NCBI RefSeq assembly: GCF_964204645.1
Contig: NC_134025.1
Span: 20,802,001 to 20,862,000, forward strand
Direction of reading: 5' to 3'
Source: Tubulanus polymorphus
Taxonomy: Eukaryota; Nemertea; Palaeonemertea; Tubulaniformes; Tubulanidae
Length of the DNA stretch: 60,000 nucleotides
Shown: piece by piece, positions 29,701 through 38,700 of the stretch
Layout of the letters: each line of letters starts with the position of its first letter
How positions within the stretch are numbered: position 1 is the first letter of the stretch
Made by a program: the position numbers and the translations under genes
Notes under the pieces: generated by a model
Told to the model about the DNA's origin: nothing
The model's input: only the letters and a program-made list of their open reading frames with translations
The model's database searches: none

Positions 29701-32700
29701 ACAGTCTTTTGTACATAACAAATCAAGAGCCCAGGTACCAGTTTCTCCCATAAGTTGATCGAAGATAACCGGTGGATAAATACCATAGTAGCAATGAACT
29801 ATCAATTGTCACTATGTCAACTATCCACTGGTTAACTCAATTAACCAATTTATGAGCAACTGGCCCAAGATCACAAGTATTCATCCGGAAATCAAATGAG
29901 CCTGAACCATCGAGTTAATTCAACTACCGGATGTAAAGCAATCTAGGTGACCCCAAGGGTTTGATAAGTTAATCAATACTGGACCCAGTTCCACAGTTAA
30001 GGTTGAAAGAGTCAAATTTTGTAGATTTCCACTCATTCTGAGATAGAGGGTATACAGCACAACTGAACTGAACTGGGGTCCTGATCTACAGTACGTACAT
30101 ATAAACCAGGGGGCCTGTTGCTCAAAAGTCAGTACGAGTTAACCAGTGAAGGATAGATGAGAGTAAAACTTCACTTTTACCCTGGCATCTATCCCAATGG
30201 CTATCTTTACCAACTTGTGAACAACTGACCACACGCTGTCAACGTTCAAGTTATATATTAAGATTGTGATTTTACAATCAGGCTGTTGTTACTTGACAGT
30301 AAAAGGCATTTCGGCAGAAATCAATACAGATCTATAATCTATCATATACAAACATGCACAACATTGAACCTTGGGAGTAATAAAACATATAAATCAACAA
30401 TCATTTGTTGTGTGATACCATTAAATCACTGAAGTAGGCCATAGATCAACGATAATGCAATCGGTTGCAACCGGTCGCAAATCCAGATCCGACTACTTCA
30501 GTATCTACCTTTGTAGCATTTCACTACAATTTGACATCTAAAACATTAATCTAATTGAAAACTAGAAATTATTCTGATTTTAAGAGTATTTTGATGATAA
30601 GGTAGTAATTGAGCTCTTGAAAGTGTAGTAAATACTCCCAATTAGTGATGTGGTAGTCAGGTCAGCAAATGGGCATTGTACGTCAAATACCGACTTGCCA
30701 ATGCCAACCTATGTCTGGCTTGATAATTGATCTAAAGCCGGTTTCACATACTGACGCATCCATTTTTATGTATCTATTAAAGCTAGTCAGACAATTTGAC
30801 TATATCACGTACTGATAAATGAGAAATATCCAATTTCAACGATAACTATGGACGTGTTCATCTTTCATCCCTCAAACCCACTGAGTGACACTTAATAAAG
30901 TACACGTACAAGATTGAGGCTTCTTCCTGAATAAGGGGAACGGTCTGAGAAAAACTTTCGACCCAGGAAATTTGAGCCCGAAGAAATCAAACTCATGATT
31001 GATGAAATCAGTAATCGATGGCCATAATTGGTAATAATGTCAAATAGTAAAATCCCCTTGCAAGTTCTTTCTCGGAAAGAAAATATTGCAACAAAAAATC
31101 TGATTGGAAACTATTCTGCCTATATCGACAGGATTGAACGTCGGTATGTGACACTGGTGCATGCTTCACAGCGGGAATAAACGTAGTTAAGAAGTGATAT
31201 TGTATTAATGCTGTTGTAAGGAGCGCGCATACATAAATGTAATGGTAAAATATTAGTAAATATACACGCATTTTTCTCAACCGATGCAATTTCATACTAA
31301 ATGCTTACCATTAATAGGAGGGATCCTATTCGGATCCTGGTAGCCGGCATCCGGTTTATCGGCAGTATCCACTTCGTTCTGAGAGGTTATACTCTGCAAA
31401 TACGAGTAAACAAAAAAAAAAATTCGAAATTCTCATCGCGTCCACATCTGTCAAATTACCGTCTCCGTTGTGACCATTTATACTTACCGTCGGGGATGCT
31501 GTAACGGTGGTCGCGCCGTAATTTTCGTGCCGAACGTTAACAGAGTTACTCTCTTTGTGCAACGTCGATTTACCGTCGATAACGGATGTGGTGCCCGGTT
31601 GGTCCGGTACGACATAGCCCCGGCGGTCGACTAAGCTATAAGAATGAATGTATAAGAATAGAGTATACAAAAAAATATCTCGAATCAATTGTTCAATAAA
31701 TATTCCATAGCTTAACACCTCGAACGCCGGCCCATGTGCGTTAATTTCCCACCCATTTGACTCATCATTACAAAATGATAGAAACGTGATATGTTAAACA
31801 TAGGGATAAATTAACTATGGACATAACGAGATATTGGTCTAAAAATTTAAATATTTCATATGTCATACTTCGTACACAATATTTTATTTATCATATTTCG
31901 GTATGTATTTACCTCGGAGGTGTGGGTCCGCACAGCACATACGCACAATTCGTGAATACAGACCCTTTGCTGTAAGGATTGAAATTGTTTTGGCCTCTTC
32001 TCGACGAAAAAGTGCCTTTGATCTGCGAAATAAACGAAACACATCGCAAACATTAATCAACGCGCTACGAATTATCAATTTCATTCATTTGCAAGAGGAG
32101 TACTCAAAAGAATAACATTATACATCAATTGGAAATTCCTTAAAAATTTGAAGAACTTTTTTCAGCGAGTACTTAGCTAGTTTACCATGCAATGAAACAT
32201 CTGACATAGAAAGTGAAAACACATTTAACATGCGAAATACTGCATTCAAAAACAATTGTTACACATTTATGGGGGCGATTTGCATTCGATAGCGAATGAA
32301 TATAAGCCGATATCAATGACCAACCCCAGTATCAATGTATAATGAAAATAAAAGGAAAACATATCATCATTATCGAAAATGACCACTGGAGTTCCACCTG
32401 ATTAAGGCTTCTTCATTCCCCAACTGACTCTCTTCAAGCAAGCTTCAATATTATACATACTCGTTCTCTACCAAAAAATTGGCTTCAATAGGGGTTTTCT
32501 TTTGGGGACTATAAAATAACCGATACCAGGGTCGGTCATTGTTTTATCCATTCACACTGTCAAATGTGACAAGCCCTCGTGTCAAATATGACAATTACAT
32601 AGTTCATCGGAACACGCATAGAGCAGTTCTTTTCAGGCTGTAATCTTACAGGAAAAAAAAAAACAAAAAAAAACAAAGCAAATCTTACATCTTCATTTGT

Positions 32701-35700: not shown

Positions 35701-38700
35701 GGCTTCAGTGCCTAAAAAATGTTTTATATGAACCTATTTAGGAAAATAGGAAATTTTGATTAGCATAATGCCAAACAACAGTAAATTTTAGTTTTGGTGC
35801 AGTTCCCCTTTAAAAGCATATACATAAAAGCATATACATATATATATATAAATAAGATGAAACACATTTATCAGAACAATAAACGCTACCATGCCCATGC
35901 AAAGCAATATAATGAAACCAGCAACACCAGTGTAGTCTGCATAAACGCACACAAACCGAGGGGAAGAAGATTTCACAATACATGTAGTTCAAAAGCATGT
36001 GATAATTAGGGTCGAGTTGTCAAGTTGTGATTAGTAAAAAAAAACAGTATTAATCTGCATTGACTTGAAAACTAAAATTGGCCTAGACCGATCTTCGGTC
36101 TAAGCCGTGACTGTGCAATAGTCTCCAGAAGTGTTTCAAGATTTTAAAAAAGTTTTTTTTTGCAGTGGTTCATCTAGGCCGGTAGTAAACTGTACTCTTA
36201 TCTGTAAATGTTATCAACTTCATTATACAGTAAACTGTATCCCACTGCCTCGGATTATTGCATATGGACGATATATTATACATTTTCTAAGTTCCCAATT
36301 CATCGCGACAACCACCAATCCCTTCTTCGATTTCGCGTACGATACCTCGGGAAACAATATATTGATCCCGCAAAATCCGAAGCAAGCAGATTCTACCGTA
36401 TAGCGCATCATCTTCTTCCACCTCGGATCGCGAAGAAGCCACCAGAGCGAGAGAGAGAGAGAGAGAGAGAGAGAGAGAGAGAGAGAGAGAGAGAGAGAGA
36501 GAGAGGAGAGAGAAAGAGAGAGAGAGAGAAAGAGAGAGTAATAGAGAGAGAGAGACAGAGAAAAAAGAGATGTACATCACAGACGAACACCGAATACCGG
36601 GTAGATACAGAATTACTCACATCTTCATTAGTTGTCTGATTAGACGTTGTCAAGTATGTATGGAAACCGGCCAGGCCGATTATTGACCAAACAGAAAAGA
36701 AGCAGACTATCGCTTCGAGTATAGTGAAACGGAATTAAGGACGTAGTAAGCTATAGTTAAGCCGTTATCCCTAATAACAGGCATGTGGACCATTCACCAA
36801 GTACATACACAACTATCGGGATTCGAAATCGCCGTTCTGAGCGAAATTTCACTAAAACGCAGGACAGCATAAAATTGCCATAGTGGAGAAACGGTTTAAA
36901 TTGACAGCATATATGACATGGTACGTAATTCATGAATGTTCCCATATGCGCGCCGTCCCGAGTCAGATAAGTTGGAAATAGTCAACGTCTCCTTACTCGG
37001 TACTGAAGTGAACTTGAAGATGATCTTGTCACAACGTTTACAATTTCAAAACTCAATTCTCAACTTTGGTGTATGGTGCAAGTATGCTACCGAGTAAGGA
37101 TAAGTAAACTGAGGCTTAGCGAAAGTCATTATCTTCTGCAAACAACCGTGGAAATACGCGACGAAGCATTTTTGTTTTCTAGTTTGAAAAAGGTTAACGA
37201 AATTCATTCGCAAGGTGTCAGTTAAGTAATGATGACGAATTCACACATTTAGTTAGTGAACCAGTGACTATTGCAGCACAGCACATTTCATATTAGGCTA
37301 TTAGTATACCGGGTACTTTTTCATTTCTCCATCATTCAGTAACTCCACATTCTCAGCTACTCTTCGAGGAACAGTTTTAAGAAGAAAGACACTTATAAAA
37401 ATAGCCACAAAAGCTATCATTCACCGACACATGCAAAATATCTCGGGTAGACTTGTCCTAACTTGAATCACGTGTGGCATTAGCGATAGTTTCAAGTAAC
37501 GTACGTGATAATTCAGTAGACATTTTTTGCAGTAGTTCATCCACCCTTAGTTAATCCACCCTTTCACTGCATCTATCCGGCTATGCAAGTGAGCAACCCC
37601 ATACGGCATTTAACCCGTCGGTGCAGTGTTTCCATACATGGTAATTGTTAATTCGCTAATCAAATCTCCGTCAAAGATTGTGAAATACCCCACACGGTGT
37701 GGTAGATGGAAGATCAAGATGAAATACTCAACAATTTCTGAATATAGTTAGTAATAATATTCAGGATGGGAAACTTCTGTAACCGGCAATGAAAGAGTTT
37801 CAAGCGATAATTCGATTTTGAAATGATTTCGAGTTAAGAGGAGTCGCCGTTGTTTATCTTGCACGTCGTTAATAAGAATGAACGAAACAAAGATATATAT
37901 CGGTGTCGTAAGCTAACAGGAGTGTGGTCGTTGAAGTGTTTTGAAATACAGAGGGAGAAAGTGAAAAGTGGCGTCAAGCAATCCACGTCGAGTAGAGGAG
38001 AAAACTAACGAATCACGCTCTACTTAACAACCTTTCGTCAGACCGTACGACATAAAAAAAAACTTGTTTTCATAAAAGGATATCTGGCAGGTGATTCGCG
38101 CATTGCAGAAAGAAAATTATTTTTTTGGGCTCCTGAAAAGGAAAAGAAAATTTGATTCGAATTGTTCCCTTGTGAAACTTGTACAAGAGAAAATGCTGTC
38201 CCGAATATAGCACTTCGTAAAATTGAAATCATAAATTGTCAAATTAATTAATTAATTAATCATTTTGCGGCATGCGACAAAACCAAAATATTGAATTGTC
38301 GCGGGCGACAAAACCAAAATTATTGTTTTGTCGCGCTATTCAAGTTTTATCGTTTTGTCGTAATGTTGCCCTCATTTGCATATTCGTGTTTTTTTTACGC
38401 ATGGCCCTTATCAGCCACCATAAATAAGGGTTCATTGGACGCAGAACACAATCACTGAATAACCAATCTTACACTTTAACGGCTGGTCTAAGCTTGTGCA
38501 AAAAGTATACAAATATTGATCAAAATCACTAATTGGCCCTGCAACCTTCTATCTTAATATTGAAAGAATTGGCTATTGTACTCCCTACACTTTGTAATAG
38601 GGAATGTGTGAATGCAGCTAGTGTCAGTTATGAATATAGTACGCCAATACTTACTGAGTATAAGATGAGTGATGACACAGGCAAATATGAAAACACATAA

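Follow-up and report, generated by a model that had tools for sequence, protein, structure and literature searches.

Probable mutually exclusive choice among four TM4 exons by U2/U12 incompatibility in a palmitoyltransferase gene of Tubulanus polymorphus

How can a transcript be held to one of four tandem copies of an exon? This question is raised by a 60,000-nucleotide (nt) stretch of the genome of the palaeonemertean Tubulanus polymorphus (268 Mb in 77 contigs), hereafter the window, whose minus strand encodes a palmitoyltransferase of the ZDHHC9/14/18 type. Four versions of exon 6 of this gene, each specifying the fourth transmembrane helix (TM4) and the TTxE motif, lie between exons 5 and 7; each has an acceptor of the minor (U12) type in front and a donor of the major (U2) type behind. 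We confirmed this arrangement, which had been proposed in a first-pass annotation, and consider it very probable that the four exons are interchangeable and that U2/U12 incompatibility makes the choice among them exclusive.

The alternative exons follow one another in the transcript in the order D, C, B, A, with lengths of 103, 106, 103, and 103 nt, and each has its own branch motif:

36734..36740, minus strand: branch motif of 6D, CCTTAAT
36621..36723, minus strand: exon 6D (canonical TM4, TTNED), AC acceptor, GTGAGT donor
34101..34107, minus strand: branch motif of 6C, CCTTAAC
33983..34088, minus strand: exon 6C (106 nt; TTSEN), AC acceptor, GTAAGT donor
33614..33620, minus strand: branch motif of 6B, CCTTAAC
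33500..33602, minus strand: exon 6B (STNEQ), AC acceptor, GTAAGT donor
32802..32808, minus strand: branch motif of 6A, CCTTAAC
32689..32791, minus strand: exon 6A (ATNED), present in protein P0001 (see below), AC acceptor, GTAAGA donor

They are tandem, homologous, of the same phase and of similar length, and each encodes the equivalent 35 to 36 residues of the protein. The motifs GLxG(F/Y)HTxL and T(N/S)E are kept in all four copies, which are otherwise identical at 11 to 19 of 34 residues (one codon of C being dropped). GLxG(F/Y)H occurs four times on the minus strand of the window; a fifth alternative exon was sought there and rejected, no fifth copy being present. The branch A sits 11 to 13 nt before the AC in every case, and all four exon starts, as defined by homology, show the CCTTAAY...AC combination. 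This combination is scarce in the window at large: CCTTAAY lies 8 to 16 nt upstream of 10 of the 3148 AC dinucleotides on the minus strand, the four exons included, and of 1 of the 3581 on the opposite strand. No CCTTAAY was found near the acceptor of exon 7, which is a plain AG.

The intron upstream of these exons opens with a single donor that all four share:

38071..38083, minus strand: shared U12-type AT donor ATATCCTTTTATG, with a 9-bp pairing to the 5' end of this genome's U11

Exon 5 ends in GCCAG and the intron begins with ATATCCTTTTATG; the string at 38083, ATATCCTTTT, agrees with the pattern ATATCCTT that defines a U12-type 5' splice site. The motif by itself is weak evidence, because ATATCCTTTT occurs 1671 times genome-wide versus 1321 times for the reversed pattern, and what counts is its location at an exon end. 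The pairing of the donor with U11 has an energy of -8.2 kcal/mol, as against -3.5 kcal/mol or weaker for the other 11 donors, and was equaled by 91 of 19,994 sampled background stretches. With U6atac, the exon 5 donor reaches -7.3 and none of those 11 donors is stronger than -3.2, a comparison that carries no background sample. A U2-type AT-AC intron could be ruled out: those of the sodium channel genes are described as having G at +5 (PMC2831892), and the exon 5 donor has C there. The first-pass annotation had read a full U12 AT donor at the close of the constant exon, CCTTAA(C/T) 11 to 13 nt before an AC in all four alternatives, and U2-type GTAAG or GTGAG donors behind them; we recovered each of these on the minus strand, the donor at 38084/38083, the branch motif in 4 of 4 exons, and the U2-type donors in the forms listed above.

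The genome also encodes RNAs of the minor spliceosome. Genes for U11 (98.1 bits), U12 (111.8 bits), U4atac (73 bits), and U6atac (96.5 and 93.5 bits, with a third copy at 40.5) all score above the Rfam cut-off. Two of the U6atac genes are full length, near identical, and placed on separate contigs (C8 and C6; L009 and L010), the third match being weaker. On C6 there is a match (38.8 bits) to the CENATAC (CCDC84) family that covers positions 1 to 43 of 330; according to PMC8280824, CENATAC promotes the splicing of minor introns of the AT-AN class. The intron between exons 5 and 6 is presumably removed by the minor spliceosome.

The assignment to ZDHHC9/14/18 draws on several comparisons. The predicted protein matches the Pfam DHHC profile PF01529 with 130.9 bits, and its closest solved structure is human ZDHHC9 (8hf3; E = 9.3e-137). 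In a protein search passed by 3176 sequences, of which the best 120 were listed, relatives named ZDHHC9, 14, or 18 are the closest among the matches listed. A T. polymorphus protein, P0001, which NCBI calls "palmitoyltransferase ZDHHC14-like isoform X2," is identical at 416 of 416 residues to the coding sequence of the window spliced with 6A, so that the junction of exon 5 with 6A across the AT-AC intron is already part of a public model. That model is probably based on transcripts. The database is clustered, and the cluster of P0001 comprises two sequences, one of them visible. The constant exons are as follows:

43132..43373, minus strand: exon 1 (coding part from the ATG), matched to P0001
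41070..41230, minus strand: exon 2, matched to P0001
40177..40335, minus strand: exon 3 (cysteine-rich part preceding DHHC), matched to P0001
38655..38792, minus strand: exon 4 (DHHC motif and third transmembrane helix), U2-type GT donor, from P0001 and the domain match
38084..38132, minus strand: exon 5, constant, phase 2 at its end, matched to P0001
31913..32022, minus strand: exon 7, constant, phase 0 at its start, AG acceptor
31488..31635, minus strand: exon 8, matched to P0001
31309..31393, minus strand: exon 9, matched to P0001
24307..24362, minus strand: exon 10 including the stop, as in P0001

A first candidate for the last exon (28030-27983) was unsupported, and 24362-24307 of P0001 was taken instead. 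Two foldback elements with the common end AGGGGCTCGTAT (~40870-41010 and 47190-47330), possibly a family of miniature inverted-repeat transposable elements as judged by eye, also occur in this region, and one of them sits in intron 2 of the gene.

From this anatomy the following mechanism can be proposed. The one U12-type AT donor upstream would join only a single AC acceptor, and each alternative exon brings a separate U12-type branch site with an AC acceptor in front and a separate U2-type GT donor behind. The donor of the chosen exon would then reach only the U2-type AG of exon 7, which all four share. It is restricted to that site because the acceptors of the other alternatives are U12 type, save for one AG before C that is considered below. 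Since such exclusivity derives from spliceosome incompatibility, it would work at any copy number. The choice might instead be enforced by competing RNA structures of the docker/selector kind or by introns too short to be spliced, which we find very unlikely. The introns between the alternatives measure 2532, 380, and 708 nt, so that steric exclusion is ruled out with every intron at least 380 nt long. Of 46 inverted-repeat pairs, the 25 of greatest length each include simple TA/TG sequence.

The reading frame supplies a second lock beside the U2/U12 incompatibility, because the phase of the alternative exons is asymmetric (2 in, 0 out) and double inclusion or skipping leads to an early stop. 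Taken in transcript order, the exons form 15 non-empty sets; the four single ones remain in frame, and the 11 multi-exon ones stop early, as does the transcript that skips all four. Frame control is described in PMC6071210 as unable to serve clusters of more than three exons, the lengths being combinable; here the sum of all four exons regains the frame, yet a stop is met en route. That 11 of 11 multi-exon sets and skipping end in early stops would also suit a scheme in which exclusivity is mainly post-splicing, imposed by frameshift and nonsense-mediated decay, with the U2/U12 incompatibility incidental. We judge this very unlikely, as the joining of one alternative to another would need a U2 GT donor to be used with a U12 AC acceptor, and the two types are generally incompatible (PMC3584512).

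If four TM4 exons are exchanged in T. polymorphus, do other animals exchange the same segment? Exactly one GLxG(F/Y)H is carried by each of the 121 proteins compared overall, a count that applies to the matches listed from a clustered database and includes only A for T. polymorphus. Among the 120 listed, we picked 11 isoform pairs from Mytilus edulis (three forms), M. trossulus, Ostrea edulis, Magallana gigas, and Pomacea canaliculata. The isoforms of any one species come from contigs of equal length, M. gigas excepted, for which no length is recorded. Nine of these pairs differ by 5 to 8 substitutions inside the equivalent 35-residue stretch, and the other two by none. Outside it, substitutions are confined to two M. 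gigas pairs (one residue) and two pairs involving P0019 (five residues at an alternative tail); the remaining differences between isoforms are gaps. A TM4 of the GYH type, as in A and B, occurs in only 3 of the 121 proteins, namely, P0001 and those of the annelid Owenia fusiformis and the hemichordate Glandiceps talaboti, and a search with the Owenia variant recovered itself and Glandiceps among four candidates. In a tree of the 35 residues, these two group with A and B (support, 0.84; one inner branch, 0.51). Identity does not favor A, as Owenia shares 17 of 35 residues with A and 17 with D, and Glandiceps is closer to a cockroach protein (20 shared residues) than to A (18) or D (15).

Several observations weigh against an exclusive choice among four working exons. 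Only exon A is seen in T. polymorphus proteins of the database, and a search with a query made of C, B, and A returned P0001 alone (1 match in 154 candidates). Exons B and C are diverged, with 11 to 16 of 34 residues identical in the five pairs that include them, and the TM4 tryptophan found in all of 31 compared proteins is missing from both. The pairing energies with U12 at the four branch sites (-5.1 to -8.7) fall within the background: the lowest 1% of 8569 stretches starts at -8.7, and exon 9, whose acceptor is of U2 type, reached -9.3. The mollusc exchange was observed at the level of proteins. Finally, in a scan of the first 40 nt of each alternative exon and the 90 nt that precede it, C was found to have one in-frame AG, 36 nt upstream, with an open frame that would add 12 residues. 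In the same scan, A is preceded by two in-frame AGs and D by one, all of which lead into stops, and B has none, so that the earlier statement that no usable in-frame AG exists is not strictly true of C.

The restriction of the visible protein to A and the marked divergence of B and C would be expected if only A and D, or A alone, were live and B and C were decaying duplicates with splice sites not yet eroded. This is unlikely in our estimation, since all four exons are open over 103 to 106 nt in the right phase, have a branch motif, AC, and GT in place, and keep both GLxG(F/Y)HTxL and T(N/S)E. Pairwise nonsynonymous divergence among the copies is 0.40 to 0.85; synonymous divergence could be estimated in two of the six pairs, D-B (1.86) and D-A (1.61), and in none of the other four, so that the comparison is near saturation. 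We infer that all four exons are in use. The exclusive choice by U2/U12 incompatibility put forward in the first-pass annotation is supported by the splice-site anatomy, the minor small nuclear RNA genes, and the 5-6A junction of P0001, and it further fits the mollusc isoforms that swap the equivalent 35 residues and the lack of CCTTAAY before exon 7. That account missed the reading-frame lock, the identity of the gene, the AG of C, and the intron of a ZDHHC5/8-type paralog to which we now turn.

This paralog (L029; C2:2013000-2019000), whose type was assigned by eye from its likeness to a ZDHHC5 match row, has a 124-nt U12 GT-AG intron at positions 2123-2246 of the reverse complement. The intron opens with GTATCCTTTATC, closes with TTCCTTGACGAGTTATTTTACAG, and precedes the TM4 exon; its distance to GLxGFH and its phase (2) equal those of the AT-AC intron in the window. 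With the GT at +103 as donor, the TM4 exon would measure 103 nt, and one TM4 motif is present in the 6 kb examined. In the paralog on C4 (L028), the 5 kb examined contain no CCTTRAY and one string resembling a U12 donor, at 3161, downstream of the TM4 exon. The equivalent position and phase in the ZDHHC5/8-type paralog suggest that the minor intron may predate the duplications; it may already have existed when the paralogs diverged, and any TM4 exon copied afterward may have been exclusive from birth. We give an even chance to a broader proposition, in which any exon that has a minor intron upstream and a major one downstream is "born exclusive" upon duplication. Every copy would be incompatible with its neighbors from the outset, and the cluster could reach any size with no additional regulation. 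ZDHHC9/14/18 would then offer an ancient example in its TM4 exon: nemerteans and molluscs, and perhaps also annelids and hemichordates, would swap it, and its minor intron would predate the separation from ZDHHC5/8. Exclusive choice of the kind proposed for the window would provide a selective reason for keeping a minor intron.

Exclusive exons with mixed U12 and U2 sites have precedents. In JNK (MAPK8/9; exons 6a/6b) and TMEM87A/B (exons 11/11a), the choice is attributed to competition between the minor and major spliceosomes (PMC8329584, PMC6717393, PMC3584512). As described there, two exons are interlocked, with a U12 donor after the first and a U2 acceptor before the second, whereas in the window four stand side by side, each with a U12-type site at its start and a U2-type site at its end, and do not conform to the two-exon design. 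It is this repetition in every exon that would make the lock independent of copy number. The same principle is assigned to 5 of 629 human clusters (PMC5740500), and PMC6071210 states that it is limited to clusters of exactly two exons, a limit that the window cluster, if true, would break. In Drosophila prospero and dUrp, U12- and U2-type sites of one gene are used exclusively as twintrons (PMC3584512), in that case through overlapping introns rather than duplicated exons. For ZDHHC8, a table in PMC2831892 gives a U12 intron in both fly and human; it is GT-AG in contrast to the AT-AC of the window, and the likeness is at the level of the gene. The literature, as far as it was covered, which was in part, contained no report of alternative TM4 exons in ZDHHC9/14/18 or of a U12-gated cluster of more than two exons. 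The window cluster would be a new and scalable form of a known mechanism of exclusivity.

The finding suggests that there are palmitoyltransferase isoforms whose sole differences lie in TM4 and the conserved TTxE motif. TM4 lines the acyl cavity in the DHHC20 structures, and an exchange of TM4 and TTxE would be expected to tune the choice of acyl chain or substrate. The AlphaFold model of the protein is poor (mean predicted local distance difference test score, 55.8); it places a helix at residues 248 to 281, over most of the exon 6 stretch (250 to 284), along which the score drops from 80 to 55.

Two further features of the window were noted by eye. At ~45260-50000 on the minus strand lies a neighboring gene whose exons resemble an nrf-6/acyltransferase-3 membrane protein, and at 6714-7793 on the plus strand there is a 359-residue open frame resembling a DDE transposase.

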